A model generated the notes under the pieces. The model ran no database searches and had not been told where the DNA came from. It saw only the letters and a list, made by a program, of their open reading frames with translations. The translations under genes and the position numbers were made by a program. 45,023 nucleotides of DNA from Clostridiaceae bacterium (GTDB lineage: Bacteria; Bacillota; Clostridia; Lachnospirales; Lachnospiraceae): NCBI GenBank assembly GCA_910575585.1, contig CAJTGF010000043.1:1-45023 (forward strand). Direction: 5' to 3'. Of this stretch, positions 10,326 to 30,436 are shown piece by piece (position 1 is the stretch's first letter; the number at the start of each line of letters is the position of its first letter).

Positions 10326-10349
10326 GCGAACCAGCTCACACCGGTTCGC
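10326..10349 (-). terminator. Hairpin at the end of the polysaccharide operon
   Basis: GCGAACC and GGTTCGC pair around a 10-nt loop that contains the capF stop codon, followed by TTTAT on the minus strand. The T run is short, so termination may be partial. It separates capF from the GTPase promoter. Confidence 0.4.
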
Positions 10350-11535: not shown

Positions 11536-11548
11536 ATATCTTTTCACT

Positions 11549-12598: not shown

Positions 12599-12617
12599 AT
12601 TATTGTTCCTTTCATGA

Positions 12618-13037: not shown

Positions 13038-13056
13038 CCTCTATCTCCTCCCCTGT

Positions 13057-14247: not shown

Positions 14248-14299
14248 TATGCCACCTCCAATAACGCGCTCTCAAAGATGGCAGGATACATGATCTTAT

Positions 14300-14872: not shown

Positions 14873-14874
14873 CT

Positions 14875-15972
14875 TTATCCCTCGAATCTATTGACTGCAT
14901 CAATCACAATCCCTTGTTCTTCCTCTGTCATCCCATTATACATAGGCAGGCTCAATACCTCATCCGCATATTTTTCAGCGATCGGATAATCACCTTTCTT
15001 ATATCTAAGATATGTATAAGCTTCTGAAAGATGGGGAGGGATCGGATAATGGATCAAAGTCCCTATCTCTACTTCTTTTAGATACTTAGCTAATGAATCA
15101 CGATGCCCAGGTACATGGACTACATATTGATGCCAGGTAGAATCCGCTCCAGGACGGATCATAGGCTTCTGTATCAAGGGGTTTATTATCCCCATATCAT
15201 AGTTTGCTGCTATCCTGCATCGTTCTTCATTAAACTCATCGAGATGCCTTAACTTAACTCGTAACAGACCTGCCTGCATCTCATCTAATCTGCTGTTACT
15301 GCCAACCATCATGTTATGGTAACGCTTTTCAGATCCATAATTGCGAAATATCTTGAACAATCTCGCTAAGTCTTCATTGTCTGTAACAATTGCGCCAGCA
15401 TCTCCGAAAGCTCCGCATCCCTTGCTCGGATAGAAACTGAAACAACCCACATCACCAAAAGTACCTACTGTCTTTCCATGCCAATGATTACCATGACTTT
15501 GAGCACAGTCTTCTACGACCTTTAGTTTGTATCTGCGAGCCACATCCATGATCTTGGTCATATCACACGCCTGGCCATATAAATGAACCACAAGAATGGC
15601 CTTCGTATTATCTGTAACCACAGCCTCAATCTTGTCTGCATCTATATTATCATACTGATCCGGCTCAACAAAAACCGGCTTAGCGCCATTCACAGTAATG
15701 CCCATGACACAGGCAATGTAGGCATTTGCGCAAACGATCACTTCATCACCAACTCCAATATTGAGCAACTGAAAGCTAATCCAAAGTGCATCGAGACCAG
15801 ACGCTAATCCAACACAGAATCTGGATCCTATATACATGGCCCATTCTTCTTCAAAGGCCGATACCTCTTTTCCTAAGATATACCAGCCAGAATCCAGAAC
15901 CTCTTCCGCTTTTTTCTTATATTCATCGGCATGTAAACTATATTGTCTGACTAGGTTATTTGGCATTATCAT
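14875..15972 (-). CDS. DegT/DnrJ/EryC1 family sugar 3-aminotransferase (FdtB/QdtB-like)
   Basis: A PLP enzyme that transfers an amino group from glutamate to a 3-keto-6-deoxyhexose nucleotide. The internal aldimine lysine is in FYPSKGCGAFGDAG (Lys about 184). ASGLDALW near the N-terminus and the C-terminal HQYVVHVPGHRD are typical of the VioA/FdtB group. The start ATG at 15972 has AAGGAG at 8 nt; ATG at 15978 is too close to it. Its partners are the FdtA-like isomerase, the QdtF-like formyltransferase and the GNAT. Together they convert dTDP-4-keto-6-deoxyglucose to an N-acylated 3-amino sugar. The enzymes that make the dTDP-keto sugar (RmlA, RmlB) are not present here. Confidence 0.92.
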   Translation of the reverse strand: MIMPNNLVRQYSLHADEYKKKAEEVLDSGWYILGKEVSAFEEEWAMYIGSRFCVGLASGLDALWISFQLLNIGVGDEVIVCANAYIACVMGITVNGAKPVFVEPDQYDNIDADKIEAVVTDNTKAILVVHLYGQACDMTKIMDVARRYKLKVVEDCAQSHGNHWHGKTVGTFGDVGCFSFYPSKGCGAFGDAGAIVTDNEDLARLFKIFRNYGSEKRYHNMMVGSNSRLDEMQAGLLRVKLRHLDEFNEERCRIAANYDMGIINPLIQKPMIRPGADSTWHQYVVHVPGHRDSLAKYLKEVEIGTLIHYPIPPHLSEAYTYLRYKKGDYPIAEKYADEVLSLPMYNGMTEEEQGIVIDAVNRFEG

Positions 15973-15984
15973 CAACATATCTCC

Positions 15985-17151
15985 TTATCTTCGTTTTAAG
16001 ATCTTTTTTATGGCGCTCTTTCTTTTTTTTAGTATTTGAAATTTCCTAATATGGTCTTTCATCTCAGCATCAATACAGTTAGGTTGTTTTCTGTTTATTA
16101 GTTTATTAAAGACAACATCAGCACTGAATTTCTGTGCATATTCAAAGCATCTGTCTGAGATCAACCCATTATACAGATACTCCTTCATGATCGTCATAAA
16201 GTCTGCTCTTCGTTGTCCCGTTTCAATGTCTAAATCCGGATATTCTCCCAGTGAGTACCCTACAGAATCATATATCCACCTATATGCAACTCTGTTTGGG
16301 TCTGTAGGTCGCACAGGAGTGATCACAACTGTAGGGCACCCAGCTTTTGCGCCATCTAACGCACTTGTTCCCATTGCTATCAGTAAATCGACATAATTGA
16401 CAAAGTAATCATTTAATCCTTCATATGGGATGCTATCTATAAAGTCAATTTTATATTTAGTATCAAGTGCCTTTTTCTTTATTGATCCAACGGCATCACC
16501 ATCGCCGATAATTGTCAATTCGATTGAAACTTCACTTGATTGGATATATTCAGAAATATCATCAATCAGATGGGATAATGGGATCTCCTTAAAATCGGAT
16601 GAGACTCGCCCAACCCATGCTATATGGATTATGTTATTCTTTCTATTAGAACATCCTAAATCCCACACATTTCTCTCTGGTGTGCTAACTGCAATAGGAA
16701 AAATATTATCATCAATTTCCTCTGGAATCGTTATTCCCACAGATTTATAAGTATTATAGATCCCTACGCTATCCGTAAAAACAATAGAATCATTGCGTAT
16801 AAGCCACTGTAACGTCTTCTTTGATTCTTTTGCATACATCATATGGAGAATCCTATCAAAGAGTCTAGTAGGTGGATAATTATAGTATGAATCAGAGAAC
16901 GCTCCCATCCCCATGATCCAGATCAAAACGCGTTTCACTTCAATTCTCTTATCTGCAAGCAAATCTATATCTCCAAGTTGGGAGGAAGGCAGAATAGCTA
17001 TATCATAACAATCCTTTAGTTCATCAGTATCCACCTCATCCACGCATACACGATCGGTAGAATAACTATTTTCGATCAACCACTGATACAATCGTGAAAG
17101 GAGTTTATCTGTTCCTCCAAAAATTCCTTGCTTACATAATAAAATATCCAT
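15985..17151 (-). CDS. Putative glycosyltransferase (GT-B fold)
   Basis: 388 residues with features of GT-B enzymes: an N-terminal FGGTDKLLSRLYQWLI glycine-rich start, a C-terminal domain beginning IAWVGRVSSDFKEIPLSHLI, then LTIIGDGDA and a donor-site region (DLLIAMGTSALDGAKAGCPTVVI). The usual E-x7-E is replaced by TSALDGAKAG, so it is a divergent member. No membrane span is evident; the C-terminus is basic (KKRKSAIKKILKRR) and may contact the membrane. It lies 12 nt after the flippase gene and 12 nt before the aminotransferase. The sugar transferred cannot be read from the sequence. Confidence 0.7.
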   Translation of the reverse strand: MDILLCKQGIFGGTDKLLSRLYQWLIENSYSTDRVCVDEVDTDELKDCYDIAILPSSQLGDIDLLADKRIEVKRVLIWIMGMGAFSDSYYNYPPTRLFDRILHMMYAKESKKTLQWLIRNDSIVFTDSVGIYNTYKSVGITIPEEIDDNIFPIAVSTPERNVWDLGCSNRKNNIIHIAWVGRVSSDFKEIPLSHLIDDISEYIQSSEVSIELTIIGDGDAVGSIKKKALDTKYKIDFIDSIPYEGLNDYFVNYVDLLIAMGTSALDGAKAGCPTVVITPVRPTDPNRVAYRWIYDSVGYSLGEYPDLDIETGQRRADFMTIMKEYLYNGLISDRCFEYAQKFSADVVFNKLINRKQPNCIDAEMKDHIRKFQILKKRKSAIKKILKRR

Positions 17152-17163
17152 TCTATTTCTATC

Positions 17164-18582
17164 CTATCTTTTTAGTCTTTTCAATACTACGTTAATATAT
17201 CCTTTTCTGTATAGCTTCACTAAATTGAGCATGATCAAACATGATCCAAAGAGATTTGCTTGGATCATCATGTTTTTCATAACAAAAAAGACTTCTCCAA
17301 GCAGGAGCATTCCTTGTAGAAGAACCTCTGTTGACGGATTTTTTATTTTGATAATCTTCTTAGCATCAATTATTCGAACAACTACCACAATCACATAAGA
17401 CAATGCTGTGGCAATTACTGCCCCTAAAATATTAAATCGAGGGATAAGAAGAAAATTCATCAAAATATTTGAAGATGCACAAATAATGGTTGACTTTATC
17501 TCCAAAAAATTCGCTTTCGCAGATGCATATATTGCACCATAATAATTACTGATCCCTAAGAATACAGTTCCTACTAATAGCATGGGGATATAGTACCATG
17601 CAACAAAAAAATCTCTTCCCACATAAATCCTCATTATCGGTTTTATTATCAGGATCACAACCGAAACAAATGAGAAAAGAAATGCGGCATATACGGCATA
17701 TACGTTTTCAAAAAATGTTACATCCCTATCATTTTCGTATTCCTTTACAGCTGACATAATCCATGCCTGTGTAAAGACTGACAGCAGAGTAGTTACAATT
17801 GCTGGTATCTTTGCCGCTGCGGAATATATTCCAACTTCATTTACGGAAAAATACATATCTAGAATTAATCGATCCGAAAACGATGTGATCCACCATGACA
17901 GAGCATTGAACATTAGTGGGATAGAATAATTTAACATCTGTTTTAGCAGAGAAAGATCTATTCCTTCCTTAAATGAAATGTATTTCCTTACTCCTCCAAT
18001 GAAAATCAAAAATATAATCGAACACCAATTCCCGATCATTTCCGCTAAAAAATATCCCCTGATTGACATTTTAAAAACAGAGATAAATATAATGTCAAAA
18101 GATGCAATGATTGTTGCTGTCAAAAAACTATCAATTGAGTAGACTGTAACTTTGTTGCTTGCCTTTACAAATAATGCAGTATTCGTCCTAAAAGATTGCG
18201 ATATTAGCAGGCCCACAATATACCATCTATAATCTGCGATTGATCCATAAAAAGACAGTAAAGGAGACAACAGTAAAGTAAGGATAGATGATATAACGAG
18301 TACGGATCCAGCATTTACTACAAGCGCTCTTTTATTTGTATCTTCACTTAATCCAAACCTTAATACAGAATCGGATAGTTCTAGAGTGAGCAATGGGACC
18401 ATAAGCCCGACAAATGACACCGCAAGGTCGATTGTACCATATTGCGCAGTTGTCAATACATTTGTAAAATACGGAAGCAATATAAACTGTACAAACTTGC
18501 TGCCTATTAAGCCCACGCCAAAAATCAACATATTTTTTACTAATCCACCATATTTTTTATTTTCAATATGATATGTATTCAT
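17164..18582 (-). CDS. Wzx-type polysaccharide flippase (MOP/PST family)
   Basis: A 472-residue membrane protein with about 12-14 hydrophobic segments. It would flip undecaprenyl-diphosphate-linked repeat units to the outer face of the membrane. The N-terminal stretch NMLIFGVGLIGSKFVQFILLPYFTNVLTTAQYG is typical of the PST/RfbX group. Its ATG overlaps the stop of the upstream acyltransferase by 4 nt (ATGA), so it depends on translation of that frame. With the Wzy-like gene and the initiating transferase it completes a Wzx/Wzy system. Confidence 0.9.
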   Translation of the reverse strand: MNTYHIENKKYGGLVKNMLIFGVGLIGSKFVQFILLPYFTNVLTTAQYGTIDLAVSFVGLMVPLLTLELSDSVLRFGLSEDTNKRALVVNAGSVLVISSILTLLLSPLLSFYGSIADYRWYIVGLLISQSFRTNTALFVKASNKVTVYSIDSFLTATIIASFDIIFISVFKMSIRGYFLAEMIGNWCSIIFLIFIGGVRKYISFKEGIDLSLLKQMLNYSIPLMFNALSWWITSFSDRLILDMYFSVNEVGIYSAAAKIPAIVTTLLSVFTQAWIMSAVKEYENDRDVTFFENVYAVYAAFLFSFVSVVILIIKPIMRIYVGRDFFVAWYYIPMLLVGTVFLGISNYYGAIYASAKANFLEIKSTIICASSNILMNFLLIPRFNILGAVIATALSYVIVVVVRIIDAKKIIKIKNPSTEVLLQGMLLLGEVFFVMKNMMIQANLFGSCLIMLNLVKLYRKGYINVVLKRLKR

Positions 18583-19743
18583 TTATGACACCAACGGATT
18601 ATATATTTAGTCCTTCCTATCATTCTATTACTAAAACTATTCAAAAACTTTGATATAAGTATTCCTATTTTATTTAAGGGGATGATCAGAACTACAGTCA
18701 TTAATAACATTCCAATAAAACGTTCCTTAACACTATGCAGTAATCCCAATGTATCTACAAGTAAGTAATAAGATATAATGTGGGCAGCAAAGATCTCCAT
18801 GCTGTATCGTCCAATCACTGGCAGTATTTTTAATCCAGTTGCTCTTCTGTTTATATTCAGCGCTATTAGCATTGTACACAGCATAGCAAAAATCAAACCA
18901 TTTTGAAGCGATCCTACCTCCAGTGCTCTTTCGACCATTACTAAGGCACACATGATGCTGCATACAATCTTCTGACAATCTGACAATTTGTTAAACGCGC
19001 CTTCTTTTACGACATAATACAATATACTACCTAGGCCATAACTATAAATTCCTCTATATATGTACCACAACCATGGTTCCCAAATTGACCCAGGTATTTC
19101 ATAGATAATACCATTCAACAAAAACAGGATACGATAAAGTAAAAATCCAATGGATACACAGATCACGCCAATAACAATAGAACTTCCTAATGTTTTGATC
19201 CGTCTTAACATTATTGGATATAACATCCACATAAGTGACAAAACAGCAATATATCCTGAACCTCCGACACAAGAAAAAAATAATGAAGGGGTAAGCCAAT
19301 TTAAAAATTGATAATGAAGTACAATATCCCACCATGTTTCAACGATAATCCCATTTTTTACAACTTCTCCAATGATATACAATGTCATAAGAAGCCAATA
19401 TAATGGTATTATCCGCATAAAAGATTTTCCGATCAACTGCCAAGATGTATCCGTACCCCCCCCGTACTCGACTATCATATGATCTTGCTAGTAAGAATGC
19501 ATTGATTATGAATGTTATCTCAACACCCAATAAGCCAGATGTTCTAATATTATTCATGACTCCTGGCTGAGGAAATAGGTTACTCCACTGCAATACATGT
19601 ATTGATACGATCATAAGCATTCCTATACCTTTAAATGCATCTAGTATTCTCGATCTTGTTATTTTACCTGTTTTTTCCTTATCGCTATCCGTCGAATCTA
19701 TCATCCATGTTTTTGACAATCTATCATTACACTCGCTTTCCAA
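18579..19743 (-). pseudogene. Acyltransferase 3 family gene, out of frame at a G8 run (possibly phase-OFF)
   Basis: Two overlapping frames together make one integral membrane O-acyltransferase of about 385 residues. The upstream frame (19743-19339) gives the N-terminus SRILDAFKGIGMLMIVSIHVLQ, with the catalytic-type His, up to FLLARSYDSRVRGG. The downstream frame (to 18579) gives TDTSWQLIGKSFMRIIPLYWLLM and about eight further membrane segments. They switch at G8 (19463-19456); with seven G the frame is continuous. The start is uncertain: TTG at 19743 or ATG at 19704, neither with a strong ribosome site. As sequenced it is off, or expressed only by slippage. It would acetylate a sugar of the polymer. 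Its stop overlaps the flippase start (ATGA). Confidence 0.85.
19456..19463 (-). repeat. Poly-G run (8) in the acyltransferase gene
   Basis: Eight G on the coding strand, between GTAC and TACGG, exactly where the acyltransferase frames part. Loss of one G restores a full-length gene. Confidence 0.95.
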
Positions 19744-19775
19744 AAAGAATATCCAACAAAGAAAAATACAGCAAA

Positions 19776-20861
19776 CTATTGATCAGTAGTACTAATCCAA
19801 CAGTTAACTGATTTTTCAAGTTTTATGTATATTTCTGCGCAAGCGCACGAAATTCCAAGAGTAAATAGAAAAAGGACCCATGGATCCAACGTCAATCCTA
19901 ATACTCCCACTAAAATAGTCCTCAGATAAGGAATAACTGCATAATGTATCAAAAATGTATATGCGCTGATATTTCCAAGGGATACCAATGGATGCCATGT
20001 TAAGAATCTGCTTACCATGCCTTTCTCTGTCGCAAATAGAAAAACAAATGCCGCTGCCAAAGGAGTGTAGCAAAGTGTATTTTTAAAGACTTCGTATTGC
20101 CAAATACAGATATTATGTTCACACATATACTGTATGAGGACAAATATAATAATTGTTATGCACTCTGCAGCTGAAACGATGCGTTTATTAATCGTCTCGG
20201 ATCTTATATGAGCAAATGAATATCCCAGATAGCCGCCAATCACAAAATCCCCAAATCTAAATAATGGGCAAATATATGTAATCCAGTGAACCATATCAGG
20301 ATTATCAAACAATCTTTGCACCGGATCTAATATGGATCCAATACCCGTTAACACCTGACACAAATAAATACAAAATATAAATGCAATACTATGCTTGCTT
20401 GTCCTACGGATAAATGATAACATCAGTGGGAAAACTGCATATATAAATACACACGCAGATAAGTACCATGAGACACCATTTAATGAAAAGTATACGCTCA
20501 TATCTGGGATCCAGGATTGAATTAAAAAGCTGTTAAATACTATCATTTTCCACTGGATCATATTCTGCATGATTTTTATGTATAAAACAAGAGATAACAT
20601 TGTAAGTATATGCAGCGGGTAAAGTCTTTTAATTCTATTTATAGAAAATTGAATGCCACTTTTCAGCGAACAAGGAATTTCATCTTCTGCGTTTCTGTAT
20701 GTTAACAGGAAACCTGACAGAACAAAAAAGAGAGAAACTCCAAAAGCCCCCAGCTTAGTCAGCGTGCAATGACCTGTACAGACACATAGAAAACCAATTC
20801 CTCTAAGCCCTTGTAATGATCCAATTCTTTCGTTATTTCTAAATTTTGTCGTCTTTCTCAT
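19776..20861 (-). CDS. Acyltransferase 3 family membrane protein (O-acetyltransferase)
   Basis: About 361 residues of the OafA-like family, which uses an acyl donor to O-acylate polysaccharides. The N-terminus RIGSLQGLRGIGFLCVCTGHCTLTKLGAFGVSLFFVLSGFLLTYR contains the family Arg-Gly motif and catalytic-type His, followed by about ten membrane segments. ATG at 20861 (MRKTTKFRN) is preferred; the open frame to 20903 begins with TTG inside the upstream gene. It is a second, intact member next to the frame-shifted one, so the polymer may carry two distinct O-acyl groups. Confidence 0.88.
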   Translation of the reverse strand: MRKTTKFRNNERIGSLQGLRGIGFLCVCTGHCTLTKLGAFGVSLFFVLSGFLLTYRNAEDEIPCSLKSGIQFSINRIKRLYPLHILTMLSLVLYIKIMQNMIQWKMIVFNSFLIQSWIPDMSVYFSLNGVSWYLSACVFIYAVFPLMLSFIRRTSKHSIAFIFCIYLCQVLTGIGSILDPVQRLFDNPDMVHWITYICPLFRFGDFVIGGYLGYSFAHIRSETINKRIVSAAECITIIIFVLIQYMCEHNICIWQYEVFKNTLCYTPLAAAFVFLFATEKGMVSRFLTWHPLVSLGNISAYTFLIHYAVIPYLRTILVGVLGLTLDPWVLFLFTLGISCACAEIYIKLEKSVNCWISTTDQ

Positions 20862-20886
20862 TATTATGTAACTCTCTTTAATCCTC

Positions 20887-21675
20887 TCATAGATAAATCC
20901 CAAAATGGCTGATCAATTTTCTATACTCAATTTGAACTCTCCGCTTTACTCGTGTCATGAGATCAATATGCATTAGATCCGAATATTGAATATCTTTCCC
21001 ATCAAATAGGTCATTGGCATATTTTTCTAATCCTAGCCTTTTTATCTCATTTCCGTTCCATATACCGCGAACCATAAGCCATCCACGGTTATATCTAAAT
21101 GGAGACATTTCATCTGATCTTAAGCAAAGAAACGTTTTATCTTTTAATTGCCTCGCCCGTATGGAGCCAAATAATTCTGTCTGCCAAGGACTTTCATTGT
21201 TTTTCAGCAATAGTTTCAAAACCTTCTTATCCCACACCCCCACCTGAAGGTTCAATAAATAGTCTGCGTTTGGTTGTCTTCTGCAAAGTCCTATAACTTC
21301 GTTATAAGCATTGCGACTATCATATATATCCGCAAAAGAAATTGTCGCAATGCTCGTATCTTTTTTCAGCATATTAATGTAATGGATTATTGATCCTGTA
21401 TCAATATCCCTTTCCGGAATGAAATCATCCAGTACAAGCATCACATAGTCTGTTTTTATCTCTTCAAGATATCCGATCAGACGACCGCCCCATCCTTTTT
21501 TATCAGATCTTAATGTTTTAACCTCTTTATATTCTACATCTTTTTCTTCTAATCCTATATAGACTTGAAAAGGACAGTCCATCCACATCTTGCTAAAATG
21601 ATCAAAAAAAATATTAAGTAACGATATATTTTTATCACAGCTCAAAACTAGCACAGAACAATCTTGATTCAGCAT
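20887..21675 (-). CDS. Putative glycosyltransferase, 262 aa (GT-A-like)
   Basis: The protein begins CSVLVLSCDKNISLLNIFFDHF, and KTDYVMLVLDDFIP (about 74-87) looks like the metal/nucleotide-binding acidic motif of GT-A enzymes. The rest is soluble. It is not a standard GT2 and I cannot name the family; similar proteins occur in clostridial and streptococcal polysaccharide loci. The start has GAGG upstream and overlaps the Wzy-like stop by 7 nt, suggesting coupled translation. Confidence 0.65.
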   Translation of the reverse strand: MLNQDCSVLVLSCDKNISLLNIFFDHFSKMWMDCPFQVYIGLEEKDVEYKEVKTLRSDKKGWGGRLIGYLEEIKTDYVMLVLDDFIPERDIDTGSIIHYINMLKKDTSIATISFADIYDSRNAYNEVIGLCRRQPNADYLLNLQVGVWDKKVLKLLLKNNESPWQTELFGSIRARQLKDKTFLCLRSDEMSPFRYNRGWLMVRGIWNGNEIKRLGLEKYANDLFDGKDIQYSDLMHIDLMTRVKRRVQIEYRKLISHFGIYL

Positions 21676-23024
21676 TTATTTATACCTCGTTGATACATTT
21701 TTGATGAATGTCCTCGCACTGCAGTGAGTATCACTGCTACCAGAATTGTCTTTATAATAAAATCCTTTATACTTGATCTACCAAGGTATATTAAATTTGG
21801 AATAGTCATGAAAAGGATTATATTTGCAAACTCTGCACAATCCATATGAACATATTTTTCCATACCAATTTTTTTCTTGATACCCACTCCTTTTTGGGAA
21901 ACTTGATATGCGCATTCAACAAAACCAGCGCATACTCCTGCAACAACAAGGAATACTATATTAACCGGAAATCCACAAAAATATGATTCCGCAAAAAAAC
22001 TCGAACCAAATCCTCCTGACACCCAAGTAACACCTCTTAGGCGATCTACAAAAATACCAAAATCGTTTCTGCGGAACAGATCGATAGGGGAAAAATATAA
22101 TCTAATATCGTCTCTAAATATCACACTTCCAAAAACTGATTCCACGGAAGCGCCTTGTTGATACAACACAGACTTAATAATATTAACAAACCCAGTAGCT
22201 ACAGACCATCCCATTCTATATGAAAGGATAAAATTCGCCAAATACAAGAGTGCAATGCCAATAATTGCAAGAGTAAATATCTTGATCTTCTTTTTCTGAG
22301 AGTAAAAAAGAAGCCACAAAAACATATACATTATCGCATATCCCCGTGCTCCCCTCATTAAATAACCCAATCCGGCAACTGCTGTTATTGTACTCCCTTT
22401 GAAGAACCTATTCTCATCTCTTCCTAGTATGATCCAAACCAGAAGCGTCCATTTTCCCAGACTGAACCATCTGTATCCTTGTATGAGGACCGTTTCGGAA
22501 ACACTTAAATAATCGTGTATCTGCACTACGCTTACTTTCCTAACAGAGTCTATAAGAAACATCACAAAAAAACCTATGGCAATCCCTAGTATCATATTCT
22601 CTGCATACTTTGGAATCCTTAATCTACTGTTTCCTTCAAAAAAATATCTTTTTCTATAGGCAAAGCTTCGAGACGAAATAATCGCTGCCATGCATATGAT
22701 ATTCATCGCCATTCCAAGCCAGACAGATACTATATTCATGTTATATTCTGTGATCCCATCTCCTACAGAAATGATCTCTGCACCGTAAAAAATATTTAGT
22801 ATATACCTCATCCATACAAAAACAAAAAAGGAAAGAACCAGATAAGAATATGGCCGAATCCACCCACTTCCATCGATGATCACTGTCATTATCAATAATG
22901 TAGATACTGCAATAACATAGAATCTATGATATGAAGCACTTTCAGCCAATGCAATCCCTAAGAATCCCAATATCATTCCGAATAAATGTAGGATCAGAGC
23001 TCTTGAGTCTCTAATATTGATCAT
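21669..23024 (-). CDS. Wzy-like polysaccharide polymerase
   Basis: 451 residues with about 12 hydrophobic segments and a larger extracellular loop (about residues 260-350, containing FRDDIRLYFSPIDLFRR and WVSGGFGSSFFAESYF). This is the layout expected of an O-antigen or capsule polymerase that joins repeat units outside the membrane. Sequence similarity in this class is low, so the call rests on topology and position. ATG at 23024 (MINIRDSR) has AAAGGA at 9 nt and lies 5 nt after the stop of the upstream GT2. Confidence 0.75.
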   Translation of the reverse strand: MINIRDSRALILHLFGMILGFLGIALAESASYHRFYVIAVSTLLIMTVIIDGSGWIRPYSYLVLSFFVFVWMRYILNIFYGAEIISVGDGITEYNMNIVSVWLGMAMNIICMAAIISSRSFAYRKRYFFEGNSRLRIPKYAENMILGIAIGFFVMFLIDSVRKVSVVQIHDYLSVSETVLIQGYRWFSLGKWTLLVWIILGRDENRFFKGSTITAVAGLGYLMRGARGYAIMYMFLWLLFYSQKKKIKIFTLAIIGIALLYLANFILSYRMGWSVATGFVNIIKSVLYQQGASVESVFGSVIFRDDIRLYFSPIDLFRRNDFGIFVDRLRGVTWVSGGFGSSFFAESYFCGFPVNIVFLVVAGVCAGFVECAYQVSQKGVGIKKKIGMEKYVHMDCAEFANIILFMTIPNLIYLGRSSIKDFIIKTILVAVILTAVRGHSSKMYQRGINKC

Positions 23025-23029
23025 CGCTT

Positions 23030-23818
23030 CTATCCTTTCCGTATCCCTGCCAAAATACATTTTGGTATTAGTCCCACTATCAATGGCTTTACAGCATATA
23101 ATGCTCCTTTTGGCATTAATCCCAATCTATGGTAACCATATATCCTGGTCCTCATTTCAGCAATACGATATTTGAATTTGCGTTTCCCATAAGAGTTACG
23201 TCCTTCGTAATACTCAAAGATAGGTTTCTGGATGTTATATCCTTTGTATCCTGCCTCGTAAAGTCTCATCCACAAATCAAAATCCTCGCATCTTTTTGTT
23301 CTTGGTTTATCCAAATATCCTCCAACCCTATCAAGTATTTCTTTTCGTATCATTACGCTTGGATGCGCAAACGGACTATTCCACAGAAAATCCATTTTCG
23401 TTGGTCTTTCAGGATATTGATAAGAGCCAAATATACCTTCTTCATCAAATTTAATAATATTCGCTCCCACTAAACCATAATCAAGATTTGAGTCTAAGAA
23501 TGCAACCTGCTCTTTAAATCTATTTGGTCTACTAACATCGTCGGCATCCATTCTTGCTACATATTTAGCCTTTGTCATAGAGATCATCCTATTCAAAGTA
23601 AACGTTATGCCTTTATTCTCATCATTTTGGACCGCAACTATTTTATGAGGATACTTCTTCTCATAATCCTTTATTACATCCACAGTATTATCTTTAGAAC
23701 CATCATCGCAGATTATAAGCCGCCAGTCCGTAAACGTCTGTGACAATATTGAATCAATTGCCGTCCCTATCATTTTTTCTACATTGTATGCCGGCAATAT
23801 TACATCGATATAAGCCAT
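23030..23818 (-). CDS. Family 2 glycosyltransferase
   Basis: 262 residues of a GT-A inverting enzyme. It starts IDVILPAYNVEKMIGTAIDSILSQT and has DDGS (38-41), the metal motif DADD (91-94) and RCEDFDLWMRL, with the acidic residues that serve as general base. No membrane span is obvious apart from a hydrophobic C-terminal patch (VKPLIVGLIPKCILAG). It transfers a sugar to the lipid-linked intermediate at the cytoplasmic face. ATG at 23818 has AAGGA at about 8 nt. Confidence 0.92.
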   Translation of the reverse strand: MAYIDVILPAYNVEKMIGTAIDSILSQTFTDWRLIICDDGSKDNTVDVIKDYEKKYPHKIVAVQNDENKGITFTLNRMISMTKAKYVARMDADDVSRPNRFKEQVAFLDSNLDYGLVGANIIKFDEEGIFGSYQYPERPTKMDFLWNSPFAHPSVMIRKEILDRVGGYLDKPRTKRCEDFDLWMRLYEAGYKGYNIQKPIFEYYEGRNSYGKRKFKYRIAEMRTRIYGYHRLGLMPKGALYAVKPLIVGLIPKCILAGIRKG

Positions 23819-23973
23819 AACAATTTTCCTTCATAATATCATTTTTTGACAACAGCATTTTCAAAAAAACACTGATCATCACAGTTCCTATGACGATCAA
23901 TAAACAATAAATCGTATGTGAGACTACTCGCATGTCTAAACAATATATTTCTCCGAAAAAACAAAATATTTTA

Positions 23974-24551
23974 TTATAGCGATATCGCATTGTAAATTTC
24001 TTCCATTTCATACTCCGTAACAGAAATATCGAAGTTTCTGCTTTTTTGTTTGTTATAATATCCCATTTTTCTGCATCTAGCAGGATCATCTTTAAGTTCT
24101 AGGATAGCATTAGCAAATCCTTCTATGTCATCGAATCTACAAACTAGCGAACCATCACCGTAAGCAAAATCTCTCGTTCCTCTGTTATCAGAAACTATCA
24201 AGGGGAGTCCACTTGCCATCCCCTCTATCCCCGCAAGACCCAACCCTTCCCTTATAGATGGAAATACACATATATCTGAAGCTTGATACAAGTCAGCAAT
24301 ATTAGTTTTATATCCTAATAGGTGTACATTTCTATTAAGGTTTAATTGGTCAATAGTCTTTTGAAGTTCGTTCATCTGCTCTCCTTGTCCAGCTATCAAA
24401 TAATGGATCATATCATTATCACAGATCTTCAAAGCTTTTATAACCACACTATGATTCTTATTAATGTTTAACTCACCTACGGAAACAAGCACAAAGGCTC
24501 CAACTGGTATCTGTAACCCAATCCGAATTTGATTTCGTAAAATGATTCTGC
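23974..24551 (-). pseudogene. C-terminal half of a GT4 glycosyltransferase
   Basis: Only the second Rossmann domain of a GT-B enzyme is present: FVLVSVGELNINKNHSVVIKAL, YLIAGQGEQM, LLGYKTNIADLYQASDICVFPSIREGLGLAGIEGMASG (donor-site E-x7-E) and a C-terminal helix. Relatives have about 180 more residues in front. The codons before 24492 (RNQIRIGLQIPVGAF) belong to the same domain, and the frame is open back to the G7 run in the preceding gene. One added G there would fuse it to the full-length GT4. There is no ATG or ribosome site of its own. It looks like the remainder after deletion of the N-terminal half. About 155 nt of AT-rich sequence with no convincing gene follow it. Confidence 0.75.
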
Positions 24552-25724
24552 TCAGATGTCTGTAACCCCCCCATACTCCCTTTTCATTGTTTCTTCAACT
24601 GTTGCTATATCAAACTTCTTTATCTTCTCAAGGTTGTAAGACCCCATAGAATCCTTATCTGATCTTAACAGTTTCTTGATCGCATTTGTTACACTACTTA
24701 CATCCTCGGGATCAAAGAAAAATCCGCCTTTCCCTTCATCAATCAGGTCTGTATTTCCCCGTATCCTGCTGCACACTATCGAAAGTCCGCTGGCCATAGC
24801 CTCCATAAGAGATACCGACAGTCCTTCACGAAACGATGGGAATACAAAAGCGTCTGCCGCATCGTAGTAATCCGCAATATCCGACTGGAAACCCACCAGC
24901 TTAATACGTTCTTGCAATCTACTGTCTATTGCCAGTTTAGTTAAGCGTTCTTCTCTGTCACCGATCCCAGCAATAATGTAGTAAAGATTATCTGGTAACT
25001 CACCACACTCCTTCATTTGAGCTAACGATCTTATGACCGTTTCATGGTTTTTATTCTTATTAAATTCACCAACTGACAGGAGCATGATCCTGTCATCATT
25101 AAGTCCCAATTCTTTCCTAATCTTCTCCCTTCCATTTCCATCCGGTTTAAATTTCTCCGTATCCACCCCCACACCTGGGACATACACCGTCTTCTTTGCC
25201 TTAAACTTCCTGCTTGCTCTCTTATAGTCTTCCTTATTGATGGTGATCAAAATATCGGTATATTGGGAGAAATGCCTCTCGATCGGATAGAAGATCAGCC
25301 AGTTTTTGAAAGGGGCTCCATCATAAAAATGAAAACCGTGGGCAGTATAGACAACCTTTAGTCCATCTTTCCTTTTGCTCTTCGCCGCCTGTCTAGCGAT
25401 CACACCGCCAATTGGGCTGTGACAGTGGAGCAAAGAATAATCCTCACGATCCAACAACATTTTCACTTTCTTATAGGCTGTGCAGATTGCCGCCGGATCC
25501 ACAGAACGCGGAATCGGAATGTCAAAAACACGAACTTCCATCTCTGCTAATCGTTTCTTGAGATTTTCCGCCCTCTCTGTTGTGATCGTTCCGGGATCAG
25601 TAAAGTCTGCAGCCACATCAACTTTATATCCAAGCGTCTGAAGGATCTGAATATTAGGGATATTAAATTGATCTATCATTGAAGCAACTGAAGCCAACTG
25701 CAATGCTCGTTTTTCCATTGACAT
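24552..25724 (-). CDS. Family 4 glycosyltransferase
   Basis: A complete GT-B enzyme of 390 residues. The N-terminal domain has SVASMIDQFNIPNIQILQTLGYKV, LLHCHSPIGGVIAR and YTAHGFHFYDG. The C-terminal domain has MLLSVGEFNKNKNHETVI, YYIIAGIGDREE and PSFREGLSVSLMEAMASG (E-x7-E). It resembles EpsD/CapM-type enzymes often found right after the initiating transferase. ATG at 25724 has GGAAAG at 5 nt and follows the epimerase stop by 1 nt. The 3' end runs through G7 (24572-24566), and the last codons GGVTDI depend on the exact G count. Confidence 0.92.
   Translation of the reverse strand: MSMEKRALQLASVASMIDQFNIPNIQILQTLGYKVDVAADFTDPGTITTERAENLKKRLAEMEVRVFDIPIPRSVDPAAICTAYKKVKMLLDREDYSLLHCHSPIGGVIARQAAKSKRKDGLKVVYTAHGFHFYDGAPFKNWLIFYPIERHFSQYTDILITINKEDYKRASRKFKAKKTVYVPGVGVDTEKFKPDGNGREKIRKELGLNDDRIMLLSVGEFNKNKNHETVIRSLAQMKECGELPDNLYYIIAGIGDREERLTKLAIDSRLQERIKLVGFQSDIADYYDAADAFVFPSFREGLSVSLMEAMASGLSIVCSRIRGNTDLIDEGKGGFFFDPEDVSSVTNAIKKLLRSDKDSMGSYNLEKIKKFDIATVEETMKREYGGVTDI
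24566..24572 (-). repeat. Poly-G run (7) at the junction of two glycosyltransferase frames
   Basis: Seven G on the coding strand, five codons before the stop of the full-length GT4. With eight G the frame would bypass the TGA at 24552 and run into the GT4 C-terminal fragment without another stop. Confidence 0.9.
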
Positions 25725-25725
25725 C

Positions 25726-26613
25726 TTATCTTTCCGTTCTTCTTATGGATTCTTTTAAGCCGATCCTTTGATATTTGAAATCGTAGGCGGACATACTCTG
25801 GTCATAACTCATATTGCCAAAAGCCTTATCCGCCAATCTTCTCGTCTTTCCAGGAACAAGTCTTGCCAGTCCCACAGCCCAATTCCATGTTTTTGACACA
25901 ATTATCTTGTGTCCGCTTGCCTCCGCTATGGTCTTCACCAGCTCAGATGTCTCTGTGTACTCCTCATTCTGCGGCCAAAATATGCCGCCTTCCCCTCGTA
26001 TCATTACCTGACATAAAAACTCACAGAGGTTCTCTATGTAGAGCATCGATCTCTCATTAACCACAGCGGGAAATGCAGGCAGCCTCTTGGCTATCTTCGC
26101 AAGCGTTGGATAGTTTCCTTTGCTGCCTTTGCCATAGACCATGGGCGGTCTAAGAACAGTGACCAAAAACTTCTCGTCCGCAAGTTCCCTCACTCCTTTA
26201 TCGGCTTTCCATTTCGAATCACCGTAAAAATTTGCCGGCTGCGGCTGTGTGTACGCATGAATCCTCTTAGGCTTCCCATATGGTGCCGGGTCACCATACA
26301 CGATGGCCGAAGACATAAACACAAATTGCTTAATTCCCTCATTCTTCGCTTTCCGGCATGTCTCTATTGACAGATCCGTGTTTATTGCGTAATATTTTTT
26401 CTTAGTCTCCTCGCTCACCCTTCCCACATCCGCATGAGCAATGCCGGCGACATGATAGATGATGTCGAACTCTCCAAAATCCCTGTTTCTCCAACTCCCA
26501 TCCATCATGTCCACGGTATCTATAGAAAGCTCAGAAGCATAATGCTCTTTCACGTAATTCTCAAAGCTTACGCCGACGTAGCTGTTAGCCCCGGTAATCA
26601 AGACCTTTTTCAT
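25726..26613 (-). CDS. NAD-dependent epimerase/dehydratase family (possible UDP-4-keto-hexosamine reductase)
   Basis: A 295-residue extended SDR with GANSYVGVSF (7-16), MSSAIVYG and the catalytic pair in FYGDSKWK (YxxxK). It pairs with the initiating sugar-phosphate transferase, with a 4-nt overlap. The same pairing is seen for WbpV/WbpL and WreQ/WreU, which make and transfer QuiNAc. By analogy it may reduce a UDP-4-keto-6-deoxy-GlcNAc, but 4-epimerase activity is equally possible from the motifs alone. Confidence 0.8.
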   Translation of the reverse strand: MKKVLITGANSYVGVSFENYVKEHYASELSIDTVDMMDGSWRNRDFGEFDIIYHVAGIAHADVGRVSEETKKKYYAINTDLSIETCRKAKNEGIKQFVFMSSAIVYGDPAPYGKPKRIHAYTQPQPANFYGDSKWKADKGVRELADEKFLVTVLRPPMVYGKGSKGNYPTLAKIAKRLPAFPAVVNERSMLYIENLCEFLCQVMIRGEGGIFWPQNEEYTETSELVKTIAEASGHKIIVSKTWNWAVGLARLVPGKTRRLADKAFGNMSYDQSMSAYDFKYQRIGLKESIRRTER

Positions 26614-27383
26614 CTGGCCTTCTCCTTCTTCTTTATCTTTCCGGTACCGCCTTCAACAATCCCCTCGCTCTTTGCAATGGAGAAGATAGTACCGATAAAG
26701 CACTTCACATCAAACAGGAAACTGATCTTCTTGACATACTCGCCATCAAGCTTTGCTTTATCCGAGATTTCCAGTTCATCTCTTCCATTGATCTGCGCCC
26801 ATCCCGTAAGTCCCGGCTTTACATCATTGGCATTGTATTTATCTCTCTCTGCCACCAACACATCCTGATTCCAAAGCGCTGGCCTGGGACCTATGATGGA
26901 CATATCTCCCATAAAAATATTCCAAACCTGCGGCAATTCGTCCATACTGGTCCGGCGCATAAGGCGGCCTACCTTAGTTATGTATCGATCCGGATCATCT
27001 AACATGTGCGTGGGAACATCATGGGGCGCAGACATCTTCATGGATCTGAATTTATGCAGTTTAAAATACCTCTTATTCCTGCCAATTCTTTTCTGTGTAA
27101 ACAGGACCGGCCCGGGATCGTCAACCTTGATCGCAATCATAACGATCAAATACACAGGAGACAGTAATATCAATCCCAGACCGGCTAGAATCATATCCAC
27201 TAAACGTTTAAAATATTTCTCATAAATTCTGGGAGTATACTCACTTTTTCCCACTGCCTTAAGATGACCACGAATTCCGTCAGCATTTTCTATATCATTT
27301 TCGTCTTCAACAAAAACAACATTCTTCCCCTCCATAGGATTTTGATACTCCGTGTTTTGTTTTTTATTTCTGACATATGACAT
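26610..27383 (-). CDS. Initiating undecaprenyl-phosphate sugar phosphotransferase (PglC/WcaJ-like)
   Basis: A 257-residue small polyprenyl-phosphate hexose-1-phosphate transferase. It starts repeat-unit assembly by moving a sugar phosphate onto undecaprenyl phosphate. One membrane segment (FKRLVDMILAGLGLILLSPVYLIVMIAI) is followed by the core DDPGPVLFTQKRIGRN, KFRSMK, GPRPALWNQD and KPGLTGWAQINGR. The start ATG at 27383 (MSYVRNKK) has GGAG at 10 nt; the open frame to 27407 begins upstream of it. About 70 residues before the membrane segment are charged and not conserved in the minimal enzymes. Confidence 0.93.
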   Translation of the reverse strand: MSYVRNKKQNTEYQNPMEGKNVVFVEDENDIENADGIRGHLKAVGKSEYTPRIYEKYFKRLVDMILAGLGLILLSPVYLIVMIAIKVDDPGPVLFTQKRIGRNKRYFKLHKFRSMKMSAPHDVPTHMLDDPDRYITKVGRLMRRTSMDELPQVWNIFMGDMSIIGPRPALWNQDVLVAERDKYNANDVKPGLTGWAQINGRDELEISDKAKLDGEYVKKISFLFDVKCFIGTIFSIAKSEGIVEGGTGKIKKKEKAR

Positions 27384-27399
27384 ATGCACATTTCTCCGA

Positions 27400-27605
27400 T
27401 CAATCAATTATCCTCCCACATCGTACAGTCTTCTTCTGGAGGATAACCACCTTACTATTCTCTATTTCAATATATTTTTTAAGTTCAGTCATAGCTTCGC
27501 CATCCCAGAGATCTCTGCTCACTATTCTCTGGCTGACAAATTTTTATAACCATTGTCTCCAACACAGCGCGCGAAGCGTCTAATGCCGTCCACAACTTTT
27601 TTCAT
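27400..27605 (-). pseudogene. Small ORF of about 68 aa split by a frameshift in an A run
   Basis: ATG at 27605, behind GGAG at 9 nt, gives MKKVVDGIRRFARCVGDNGYKN and stops at 27522. A second frame, open from the same place, gives VSQRIVSRDLWDGEA and MTELKKYIEIENSKVVIL, ending at 27400. Adding one A to the A5 run near 27545 joins them into one plausible protein. I do not recognise it. Short proteins of this kind often follow the NusG-like gene in Lachnospiraceae polysaccharide loci, but that is recollection only. It fills most of the gap between the second NusG-like gene and the sugar transferase. Confidence 0.45.
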
Positions 27606-27629: not shown

Positions 27630-28136
27630 TCATGACTGCCTCTTCACAATCCCCACCCCTACAGTCACCTCTACAGCTCGTCCCATAAGAGGCACCTCCA
27701 AAACAATCAACCGCTTATGGCGCAACACTTTTTTAACTGTGCCTTTATAATCCATCATTGCGCCGGATGTTACCACCAACCGTTCCCCTTCCAGATACCC
27801 CTCAGAATATCTCACCAGATGTTCTTTTCCGCCCAATTTCTTAAGGTACGTTTCCTCCTCCGGATACAACGGCGTTATCTCCTCTCCAGTCCGCAGCACT
27901 TTCGCGTTTATCTTCCTCTGCTTCAACCGCAGAAAAAAGTCCTCTGCATCATCAGTCTCTGCAAACACATAACCTGGAAACAGCCTGCCGCTAACCAGCT
28001 TCCACTCCCCCAGAACCTTCGTCATCCTCTCCGCTGTCAGCACAAACACATCCTCATCAGCTTCCATGATTGTTCTGCGGCACTGTTGGCATATTTCTTC
28101 CTCGGCACCTGTGCTGACCTGCATTACGTACCACAT
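27630..28136 (-). CDS. NusG-family transcription antiterminator (LoaP/UpxY-like), second copy
   Basis: 168 residues: an N-terminal NGN domain (MWYVMQVSTGAEEEICQQC, then LFPGYVFAET) and a C-terminal KOW domain (GTVKKVLRHKRLIVLEV). Specialised NusG paralogs of this class bind RNA polymerase and allow it to read long polysaccharide operons through internal terminators. The start overlaps the first copy's stop by 13 nt, so they are translationally linked. Only about 20-30 percent of positions appear shared with the first copy, so they are not a recent duplication. It is intact, with TGA as stop. Confidence 0.87.
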   Translation of the reverse strand: MWYVMQVSTGAEEEICQQCRRTIMEADEDVFVLTAERMTKVLGEWKLVSGRLFPGYVFAETDDAEDFFLRLKQRKINAKVLRTGEEITPLYPEEETYLKKLGGKEHLVRYSEGYLEGERLVVTSGAMMDYKGTVKKVLRHKRLIVLEVPLMGRAVEVTVGVGIVKRQS

Positions 28137-28702
28137 CCTGCCGCCTTTCCGGATCCGTTTAATATGTTTGGATATGCGTATGTCTTGTATGTCTTCTTTG
28201 TGATCTCCAACCCTACCTCAACCAGGTTTTCTTTACCACAGAGATTCATACTGATGAGCCCTTTTCTCTTATGGCGGTCTATCTTTCTGACTCTGGACTC
28301 CATCCCTGTCAAAGGTCCTTCATAAATGCTCAGAACATTCTCGCATATCACTCCATAGGACATGTCAACTTCATCCTTTCCTCCTGTAATCTTTATGAGA
28401 AACTGTTCCTCCTCGTGCGTTATCGGACGAAATTCATCAATCTGTCCTGAGATCATGCAACATTTCAAAGGGTCTGTATTCTCCAAAGTCGGAATTTGAT
28501 TTCCCATATACGGAATCCTGGTGACAAAAAACACATATCCAGGCAAAAACCGCTCCCTCTCATCATGCCACATGCCCTGATATCTTTTCTTTTTCACACA
28601 AAACAGCTCCCGCCACTCGCCATCCAATCCGAAAAACTCGCCCTCTAGCTGACGGCTGATCATTTTCTCCTTGCCCGACGCGTTCTGGACTGCGTACCAC
28701 AC
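28124..28702 (-). CDS. NusG-family transcription antiterminator (LoaP/UpxY-like), first gene of the operon
   Basis: 192 residues. The NGN domain starts WYAVQNASGKEKMISRQLEGEF and includes RFLPGYVFFVTR; the KOW region is SRVRKIDRHKRKGLISM. The start is GTG at 28702 with GGGGGA upstream at a good distance. It is the first gene after the candidate invertible promoter region, where a class-specific antiterminator of the downstream operon would be expected. The C-terminal tail (YAYPNILNGSGKAAGCGT) goes beyond the KOW domain and overlaps the next gene. Confidence 0.87.
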   Translation of the reverse strand: MWYAVQNASGKEKMISRQLEGEFFGLDGEWRELFCVKKKRYQGMWHDERERFLPGYVFFVTRIPYMGNQIPTLENTDPLKCCMISGQIDEFRPITHEEEQFLIKITGGKDEVDMSYGVICENVLSIYEGPLTGMESRVRKIDRHKRKGLISMNLCGKENLVEVGLEITKKTYKTYAYPNILNGSGKAAGCGT

Positions 28703-28798
28703 TCTGATCCCCCGCCCTTCTTAAGTTAAATTCTGATCCCTTCAAACTTTTTCTTCCTGCTTCTTTTTAAATGAAAGCACCAAACATTCAAGCGCTCC

Positions 28799-28804
28799 AT
28801 TATA
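28799..28804 (-). promoter_or_regulatory. Candidate fixed -10 box upstream of the glycan operon
   Basis: TATAAT on the minus strand, 97 nt before the GTG start and outside the inverted repeats. A TTGACA sits only 10 nt upstream of it, too close for sigma-A, and the hexamer at 17 nt (GTCGTT) is poor. It could be a weak basal promoter. The stretch 28703-28827 otherwise holds only AT-rich leader sequence. Confidence 0.3.
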
Positions 28805-28827
28805 GAACTGATTTTGTCAAAAACGAC

Positions 28828-29068
28828 CGCTTAACTGTCTGTTAAGCGACATTTTTTTGCTTTCTTCAATACTGTTGTTTTTGGAAAATTTAGACAATTT
28901 ACAAAATATGATAAAAATATAGCAAATTTTCTTGTTATAGTTGGAAAATATGATATTTTATCACAGTTGACACATAGCAGAAAGAATGATATAATCGAAC
29001 ACGTTATAGAAATTAACGTTTTTGATAATAAAGCAAATAAAAAGTGTCGCTTAACAGACAGTTAAGCG
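28828..29068. other. Candidate invertible promoter segment (inverton) upstream of the glycan operon
   Basis: Two 24-nt sequences, at 28828-28851 and 29045-29068, are exact inverted copies. Each contains the palindrome CGCTTAAC ... GTTAAGCG, but the loop (TGTCT versus AGACA) and a 3-nt extension (ACA/TGT) show true inverted orientation. The 193-nt interior is AT-rich, has no gene and carries one consensus promoter on the plus strand, away from the operon that starts at 28702. Flipping the segment would aim it at that operon. No recombinase gene is present in the window. The alternative is a small RNA gene between two terminators. Confidence 0.6.
28967..28995 (+). promoter_or_regulatory. Consensus sigma-A promoter inside the inverted repeats
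   Basis: TTGACA at 28967-28972, a 17-nt spacer and TATAAT at 28990-28995 with TGA before it (extended -10). Every element matches consensus. It points right, and transcription would begin near 29002 and meet a strong terminator within 80 nt. Confidence 0.85.
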
Positions 29069-29079
29069 ACACTTTTTTC
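29002..29079 (+). ncRNA. Possible ~78-nt transcript
   Basis: If the promoter at 28967-28995 is active in this orientation, it makes only this short RNA, which ends in the hairpin at 29044-29078. The 5' half is AT-rich and the 3' half is the terminator. It may be a by-product of the OFF orientation or a true small RNA; the sequence alone does not decide. Confidence 0.35.
29044..29078. terminator. Strong bidirectional intrinsic terminator
   Basis: GTGTCGCTTAAC and GTTAAGCGACAC pair over 12 bp with loop AGACA (29044-29072), followed by TTTTTT on the plus strand and TTTTTATTT on the minus strand. It blocks read-through from the ClC gene into the glycan operon as well as the rightward transcript. 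The outer four base pairs use sequence outside the inverted repeat, so this full stem exists only at the right-hand end in the present orientation. Confidence 0.85.
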
Positions 29080-29176
29080 CTAATCAGACTAACACCCCAC
29101 TCTATTTTTCCCCTTATCCACCCCACACAAATCCCCGCGCCATTAATATAGGAAGAACCCCCTCTCCCCCTCCACT

Positions 29177-30436
29177 TCAATGGGCCCTCCGGTTAATAAA
29201 CTCCGTCTTCGTCTTAGAATACACAAACTTCTGGCTCCCATACAGCCCATAATACCCCGACAACGTAAAACTCACCGCAACAGCCAAAGCAAAATAAGGC
29301 ATTGCCTCAAACCCGCACATCTCAAAAGCCATGAACAAACCGGAGATCGGGCAATTCGTCACCCCCACAAACAAAGCCACCATGCCGCAGGCGGCGCACA
29401 GAGACGGCGAAAAGCCCAGCAGAGTCCCCACCATGCATCCGAAGGTAGCCCCCACGCACAGCGTAGGAACAATCTCGCCGCCTTTATACCCGGCTCCCAA
29501 TGTCATGGCAGTAAACAGCATCTTCAAAAGAAACGCCTCATACCTGACGCGGCCGTTTAACGCCTCCTCAATCAGCCCCATGCTGCTCCCGTTATAATCC
29601 CGGTTTCCCACCAGCAGGGTAAGGCCGATCAAAAGTACGGATGCCGCCAGGATACGCCCATAGGGGTTGGGAAGATACCTTTTGTACAGATATTCCGCCT
29701 CATGGAGCATCAGGCAGAAAAAAATACTGACAACAGCGCCAAGAATTCCCAGACACACGATGATCATTCCCGGAACAAGGCCGAACTTGGGGATCTCCAA
29801 AATCTCAAAATGTTCCCCGGAAAGCCCCATAAGCCCTGCCACTCCAGCCCCCAGAAAAGAAGCGAACAGACACGGCACCAAAGCCGCGTAATACATGACG
29901 CCAATGCTGATGACCTCAAGGGAAAAGATTCCCGCTGCCAGCGGCGTGCCGAACAGCGCGCCGAAACAGGCGCTCATGCCGCACATTACCGCTACCTTCG
30001 CGTCCCTGTCATCCAGCTTTAACACCTTGCCCGCCAGTGTTCCCAGACTTCCCCCGATCTGCAGAGCCGCGCCCTCCCGCCCTGCGGAGCCGCCGGTAAG
30101 ATGGGTCAGGATCGTGCTTATAAAAATCAGCGGCCCGGTAGAAAGAGAGATTTTCTCATTGGACGAAACCGCTGCCAGAACCATATTGGTCCCCTGGTTC
30201 TTCCACTGATGAAAGGTTCCATACAGCCACACGATCAGAACTCCGGTTACCGGCAACAAAAACAAAAGCCAGTGATACTTCCCAAAGCTTTCCGCCGCCA
30301 CGCGGATTCCCCGGCCGAAAACTCCTCCGATTACGCCGCCCGTAACGCCTACGGCCATGGAGATCAGGCTCCACTTCACAAAATAATCTGCCTGAGCCTT
30401 AAATGGCGTCCTTATTTTTAATAATTCAAGCTTCAT
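29177..30436 (-). CDS. ClC-family chloride/anion channel or antiporter
   Basis: A 419-residue integral membrane protein with about ten membrane helices. GSAGREGAALQIGGS corresponds to the ClC GKEGP motif, and GYKGGEIVPTLCVGA to the GxFxP anion-binding loop. The first motif (GSGIP) is replaced by NQGTNMVLA, as in a divergent bacterial subgroup whose ion and coupling I cannot tell. ATG at 30436 (MKLELLKI) is preferred; ATG at 30442 lies too close to the GGGG. There are no CBS domains. It stands alone between ilvA and the glycan promoter region. Confidence 0.88.
   Translation of the reverse strand: MKLELLKIRTPFKAQADYFVKWSLISMAVGVTGGVIGGVFGRGIRVAAESFGKYHWLLFLLPVTGVLIVWLYGTFHQWKNQGTNMVLAAVSSNEKISLSTGPLIFISTILTHLTGGSAGREGAALQIGGSLGTLAGKVLKLDDRDAKVAVMCGMSACFGALFGTPLAAGIFSLEVISIGVMYYAALVPCLFASFLGAGVAGLMGLSGEHFEILEIPKFGLVPGMIIVCLGILGAVVSIFFCLMLHEAEYLYKRYLPNPYGRILAASVLLIGLTLLVGNRDYNGSSMGLIEEALNGRVRYEAFLLKMLFTAMTLGAGYKGGEIVPTLCVGATFGCMVGTLLGFSPSLCAACGMVALFVGVTNCPISGLFMAFEMCGFEAMPYFALAVAVSFTLSGYYGLYGSQKFVYSKTKTEFINRRAH

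Follow-up and report, generated by a model that had tools for sequence, protein, structure and literature searches.

A probable invertible promoter upstream of LoaP-type antiterminator genes and a polysaccharide operon in a Lachnospiraceae genome

The DNA examined here (the window) is a stretch of 45,023 nucleotides (nt) from a Clostridiaceae bacterium of the Lachnospiraceae, and its subject is the segment at 28828–29068, which a preliminary description made from the sequence alone had taken for a candidate invertible promoter in the OFF orientation, that is, facing away from a polysaccharide operon. Directly beside the segment lie the two minus-strand antiterminator genes on which that description relied. 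The first (28124–28702) is NusG-type and LoaP-like, scoring 109.8 bits against the NCBIfam LoaP cut-off of 125 and passing the Pfam NusG cut-off, and the second (27630–28136) is a NusG-type gene that exceeds the LoaP cut-off at 139.5 bits. All five of the NusG-type proteins scanned match LoaP, two of them above the cut-off, and UpxY matches were found in two of the five, both under their cut-off, so these proteins do not fall in the UpxY family. Scanning named genomes with the window's first antiterminator turned up no relative. Beyond these genes is a minus-strand run of open reading frames (ORFs) at 10336–27407 that we take as the polysaccharide operon; its first two ORFs, those given a domain search, encode a sugar transferase (26610–27407, minus strand) and an NAD-dependent epimerase (25726–26613, minus strand).

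The segment itself is bounded by two unstranded palindromic sites. The near, operon-side site (28828–28848) reads CGCTTAA-CTGTCTG-TTAAGCG with its core at 28835–28841, and the far site (29048–29068) carries the identical core inverted (29055–29061). Between them is the predicted inverting segment (28849–29047), seen inverted in relatives, and crossover would be expected to fall within the 7-bp cores. The sites sit in exact 24-nt inverted repeats, found as previously claimed at 28828–28851 and 29045–29068; each repeat holds the palindrome CGCTTAA-N7-TTAAGCG, and the pair extends to 39-nt arms that are 87% complementary. Also as claimed, a perfect sigma-70-type promoter with an extended −10 element (TTGACA, 17 nt, TGA-TATAAT; 12/12 matches, 28967–28995, plus strand) lies between the repeats and is directed away from the operon, running rightward into the far palindrome, and this promoter is conserved in relatives. 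There the far site folds together with its A/T flanks into a terminator hairpin followed by T's (29039–29077, plus strand). A terminator had been placed here with a stem of 12 bp; we found 17 pairs, the 12 plus five A-U. Positions 28000–30000 hold seven terminator-like sites compared with 1.6 in shuffled sequence, and three promoter-like sites compared with 2.5; since all three are on the plus strand, none is directed at the operon as assembled. At 28967–29020, as in elements related to it, conservation in many copies goes beyond what a promoter needs, both in the spacer of the promoter (commonly AGAAATGATG) and in the bases transcribed first (commonly CGTTATAGAAA), and a small hairpin before the T's is possible in some copies.

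Comparison with other genomes supports placing the segment in a family of invertible promoters that precede LoaP/NusG-type antiterminator genes at the head of polysaccharide operons in Hungatella-related bacteria. The genome of the window (G000; 6.13 Mb in 253 contigs) has seven complete site pairs, 209–222 nt apart, each directly upstream of a NusG/LoaP-type gene. Sites are also present in four of the 25 other genomes of the genus (G010, G011, G022 and G024, which like G005 are Hungatella metagenome assemblies), and a reversed-motif control gave 0 matches in the 26 genus genomes. Among 397 genomes of the taxonomic family, seven match the site within one mismatch, with a plausible pair only in G000 and G308 and one match each in the other five; a scan of viral contigs found none with the exact site. 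G308, a genome from a different genus of this taxonomic family, has variant sites and promoters whose neighbours are Cas12f1-like TNB-domain genes (TnpB-like), not antiterminators; two of the sites are single and two others form a matched pair separated by 367 nt (L233, L234, L235). Many of the operons start, as in the window (27630–28702), with two different tandem NusG-type genes (L025, L028, L035 and others), which recall the UpxY/UpxZ pairs of Bacteroides.

To compare the two ends of each element, pairs were sought by their arms only (at most two mismatches in 14 bases, 100–450 nt apart) within the sequence retrieved around sites and antiterminators, which yielded 43 pairs from 10 genomes. 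Partner sites share the same 7-bp core in 43/43 pairs, and 26 different cores are represented. Reassigning cores at random produced a mean of 1.6 matches and a maximum of 8, which excludes chance, and reassigning them within genomes produced a mean of 10.6 and a maximum of 24. Every pair thus shows the arrangement of lox-like sites, in which inverted arms enclose a short, asymmetric core common to both partners, and a promoter lies inside 42 of the pairs (none was found in G045:C55). These counts leave aside single sites, contig ends, and sites that are too distant or have irregular cores, namely G000 C28, C131 and C3; G010 C31, C33, C51, the C63 end and C71; G045 C5, C17 and C34; G042 C85; and G046 C38. 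It is possible to see dispersed copies with inverted ends as a miniature inverted-repeat transposable element (MITE)-like, non-autonomous mobile element. Given that all 39 elements whose antiterminator side is known immediately precede a NusG-type gene and keep the same near/far asymmetry, and that the ends covary within each element and follow no single consensus, we find this barely credible.

Some of the sites left aside are informative in their own right. G000 C28 and C131 carry two single sites with a common core (L030 near 7997 and L033 near 5393); the one on C28 lies next to an antiterminator gene, with integrase and excisionase genes of the Tn916 type after it, the one on C131 comes with the promoter, and together they are probably one element interrupted by a Tn916-type transposon. 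G000 C3 has one near site and, separately, an unpartnered perfect palindrome between A/T flanks (L031:7974–7994; G000 C3:123973), perhaps the remnant of a lost switch or a plain terminator. G010:C31 was considered as a recombinant of the C2 element and rejected, as its interior differs and a separate element with the same core is simpler.

The preliminary description had proposed comparing orientation in related genomes, and the inverted state is present there. A NusG-type gene lies on the same contig beside 38 of the pairs, of which 35 are OFF and 3 are ON, with the promoter facing the operon. The antiterminator of G010:C49 is on contig C33, joined by a 55-base overlap, and adds one OFF, bringing the elements of known side to 39: 36 OFF, like the window, and 3 ON (G011:C77, G022:C98 and G044:C3), a small sample with at most one ON element per genome in the 10 genomes as far as seen. 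Not counted were G046:C79 and G042:C103 (contig without an antiterminator), G045:C55 (without a promoter) and G024:C46 (flank resemblance alone). In five of five ON/OFF alignments the operon-side flank matched on the plus strand and the segment on the minus strand; the sixth comparison, an OFF/OFF control, was plus throughout. The clearest of these is Clostridium symbiosum against C. transplantifaecale, with a flank of 75% identity (plus) and a segment of 82% (minus), where among the matches listed the far flank is also common (83% over 561 bp, offset by about 830 bp). C. symbiosum ATCC 14940 has two complete loci, both OFF, and C. transplantifaecale Marseille-P8228 is ON/OFF. The loci in the other four comparisons are not established as orthologous, and operon-side flanks resemble each other widely: G010:C11 against G011:C77 (flank 79% plus, segment 81% minus), two G022 loci (68% plus, 80% minus), and two weaker cases, G000:C1b against G011:C77 (79% plus, 73% minus over 91 bp) and G022:C131 against C98 (63% plus, 76% minus over 110 bp). 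The inner halves of the G022 ON copy are swapped between its sites. A reversed segment within a forward operon-side flank supports inversion by comparison, beyond what the anatomy suggests.

The same counts bear on a different explanation, in which the segment is a fixed small-RNA gene (promoter, an RNA of about 78 nt, terminator, and a second palindrome upstream) whose RNA might act on the operon leader containing the same hairpin. This would suit the 36 of 39 elements directed away from the operon and the promoter-to-hairpin stretch being the best conserved part. It does not suit the three ON copies and reversed alignments, nor cores that are matched at both ends yet diverse. A known small-RNA family over the segment had been named beforehand as an observation that would speak against a switch, and Rfam gave 0 matches over the window at the gathering threshold, so no known structured RNA family covers it. 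We therefore consider a fixed small-RNA gene very improbable, and the invertible promoter by far the better reading.

Evidence of mixed populations was sought at contig ends, assuming de Bruijn assembly, in which contigs from a mixed population end where the orientations diverge. Contigs C33 and C49 of G010 have 55 end bases in common that stop after 4 bases common to OFF and ON, and C34 and C74 of G045 have 55 common end bases that stop after 7 such bases. The end of G010 C63 consists of the 21-base site plus 34 bases, as predicted if C51 is the other side, and the ends of G010 C51 and C31 fit the mixed-orientation prediction on partial comparison. Five contig ends in G010 lie within 60 nt of a site compared with 0.2 expected, a rough figure based on about 24 sites and a rounded contig number, with two ends coming from one break. 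G042:C85 and G046:C38 also begin or end close to a site. As these contig ends fall exactly where OFF and ON diverge, both orientations probably coexisted in the two metagenomes concerned (assemblies G010 and G045; CAMUJH01 and CANDBT01).

Inversion is also predicted to alter the terminator. The OFF hairpin of the window folds at −23.6 kcal/mol (29020–29085). When the segment was inverted in silico, the ON hairpin had 8 pairs in the fold (−13.5 kcal/mol for the whole folded piece) and 10 pairs, including two G-U, in the terminator scan. The fold agrees with the 8-bp stem expected after inversion. The window's ON hairpin still ends in five T's and so remains terminator-like. Across the family, repeats double as terminators, as had been noted for the window. 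Joining the halves in silico for 39 elements gave a shorter stem after inversion in 38 (mean 15.2 pairs OFF and 7.3 ON); the T run shortened in 35 elements, stayed equal in 2 and lengthened in 2. With the stem shortened in 38/39 elements, one inversion would alter promoter direction and terminator strength together. LoaP is described as binding a leader hairpin and opposing NusA-dependent termination in Bacillus (PMC12691694), and from this one could speculate that LoaP overcomes the residual ON hairpin.

A search for a site-specific invertase elsewhere in the genome, another check proposed at the outset, led to an unlinked tyrosine recombinase of about 329 amino acids (aa) at G000:C100:3033–4019, in a separate polysaccharide cluster. 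Eighteen proteins were chosen for comparison from the integrase matches listed in ten genomes, and among those matches the ~329-aa group (PF00589 with PF14659) has members in all five site-bearing genus genomes. Over the 26 genus genomes the best score is at least 519 bits in these five and in G005, and at most 193 in the other 20; at 450 bits or more the recombinase is thus present in 5/5 site-bearing and 1/21 siteless genomes. Scanning named genomes with the ~329-aa family returned 12 loci, seven in known genomes and five in new ones, including C. symbiosum ATCC 14940 and C. transplantifaecale, and all five new genomes carry sites (0–1 mismatch) and LoaP-type genes. At E 1e-60, 45 of the 397 family genomes match, with few candidates scored per genome; G000 and G308 score highest and are alone in having plausible site pairs, and two genomes of another genus score 328 and 322 bits, compared with 334 for G308, without sites. 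Judging by ORF order and protein starts, in six genomes the gene has a glycosyltransferase gene on one side and a Wzz-like gene on the other. Pfam identified a glycosyltransferase and a sugar transferase among the G000 neighbours, with Wzz slightly under its cut-off, and the flippase of G022 was covered as well. Among solved structures, Xer recombinases and an entry called "Int protein" match the recombinase profile. A second recombinase paralog (L125, L126, L135) is near a thiamine-pyrophosphate-type enzyme and apparent cell-wall-binding repeat proteins, as read from protein starts only.

From this presence pattern and gene neighbourhood, this tyrosine recombinase of ~329 aa, whose unlinked gene lies within a polysaccharide cluster, is the likely switch enzyme. 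The promoter could instead be flipped by a different enzyme, either another integrase or a serine recombinase, as the link to the ~329-aa protein consists of co-occurrence and neighbourhood only and the five site-bearing genus genomes each have at least 9 to 47 integrase matches. We regard this as unlikely, given how the ~329-aa enzyme is distributed and that scanning with it led to five more genomes with sites. Serine recombinases were found in six of seven genomes searched, the exception being G024 (78% complete), which nevertheless has sites. A tyrosine recombinase requires agreement of the overlap between partner sites, and a matched 7-bp core would suit this class of enzyme better.

Overall, we think it very probable that the segment is a phase-variation switch, worked in trans by the ~329-aa enzyme, with a terminator in OFF and read-through into the antiterminator genes in ON. 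Two palindromic sites with inverted, asymmetric 7-bp cores would flank the promoter, and a trans-acting tyrosine recombinase, most likely the ~329-aa enzyme, would exchange strands in the cores and flip it. In OFF, the far site, folded as a strong intrinsic terminator, would stop transcription some 80 nt after its start. In ON, the inner arm would join the operon-side outer arm to give a shorter hairpin and usually a poorer T run, allowing polymerase to read into the LoaP-type antiterminator genes, whose products would in turn help it traverse the long polysaccharide operon. Each genome would have 2 to 8 switches worked by a single enzyme, and switching in this strain would be expected to change its surface phenotype.

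Several observations weigh against this account. The OFF bias is strong, including 7/7 complete G000 elements in the assembly, and most of the 43 elements assembled through in a single orientation. G005 (73% complete) has the recombinase without a LoaP match, and its one 3-mismatch site match does not exceed the control. The comparison of only 18 selected integrases leaves room for another enzyme. The elements are related by descent, so p values, those of the stem and T-run comparisons included, are overstated, and with five T's kept, the window's ON state may itself terminate in part.

We also offer, tentatively and with confidence short of even, a wider reading in which these elements form a genome-wide phase-variation regulon in Clostridia. 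Each site would be both a lox-like site and a terminator, a single recombination would flip the promoter and put a permissive leader hairpin in place of a strong terminator, and the variable cores would be locus addresses that let one trans-acting recombinase flip each switch without joining different capsule loci. Loci sharing a core, of which there are four pairs within genomes, would exchange flanks and shuffle capsule operons. Selection for different cores within a genome was considered and gained no support (39 distinct observed, 40.6 expected with cores shuffled among genomes), so the address idea draws on mechanism only. If these readings hold, tyrosine-recombinase specificity could be studied with a recombinase-site pair whose cores vary naturally, and ordinary metagenomes would reveal the surface states of these bacteria.

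Bacteroides offers the best-known cases of capsule phase variation through promoter inversion. Among titles and abstract openings of the open-access PMC literature, we recognised no description of the present switch family, and the relevant accounts are compared here as far as their consulted portions describe each system. In Clostridioides difficile, cwpV is controlled by an inversion switch with an unlinked tyrosine recombinase, RecV, and an OFF terminator (PMC2784873). The likeness lies in clostridial inversion, an unlinked tyrosine recombinase (a candidate here) and a terminator stronger in OFF (in silico here), whereas the cwpV promoter is described as outside the inverted segment, with the terminator alone changing, and here the promoter is between the sites. 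Capsule clusters with LoaP are rearranged at short inverted repeats in Eggerthella lenta (preprint PMC13174815), but those are described as inversions of about 2 Mb at one 16-bp repeat, compared with promoter segments of about 160–275 bp within the locus here. The 2025 hCom2 survey reports clostridial invertons with previously unpublished motifs, including group 139, linked to a tyrosine recombinase (PMC11892184). Its groups 139 and 125 are likewise invertons in Clostridia; the invertase of group 139 is given as nearly always within 5 kb, unlike the unlinked candidate here, and as the comparison is by description, overlap with either group is possible. A comparable layout is that of the B. fragilis polysaccharide loci, where many invertible promoters precede UpxY antiterminators and polysaccharide operons and are served by an unlinked master serine recombinase, Mpi (PMC5903667, PMC11892184). 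Both arrangements, as described, have invertible promoters, a NusG-paralog antiterminator, a polysaccharide operon and one unlinked master recombinase (a candidate here). The antiterminators here are LoaP-type rather than UpxY-type, the candidate enzyme is a tyrosine rather than a serine recombinase, and the palindromic sites serve as terminators too and carry an element-specific 7-bp core. The layout would work as in the Bacteroides capsule switches, with a different class of antiterminator and probably of recombinase. A similar layout built from different parts in Lachnospiraceae suggests that surface variation in gut bacteria has evolved convergently or in a modular way.
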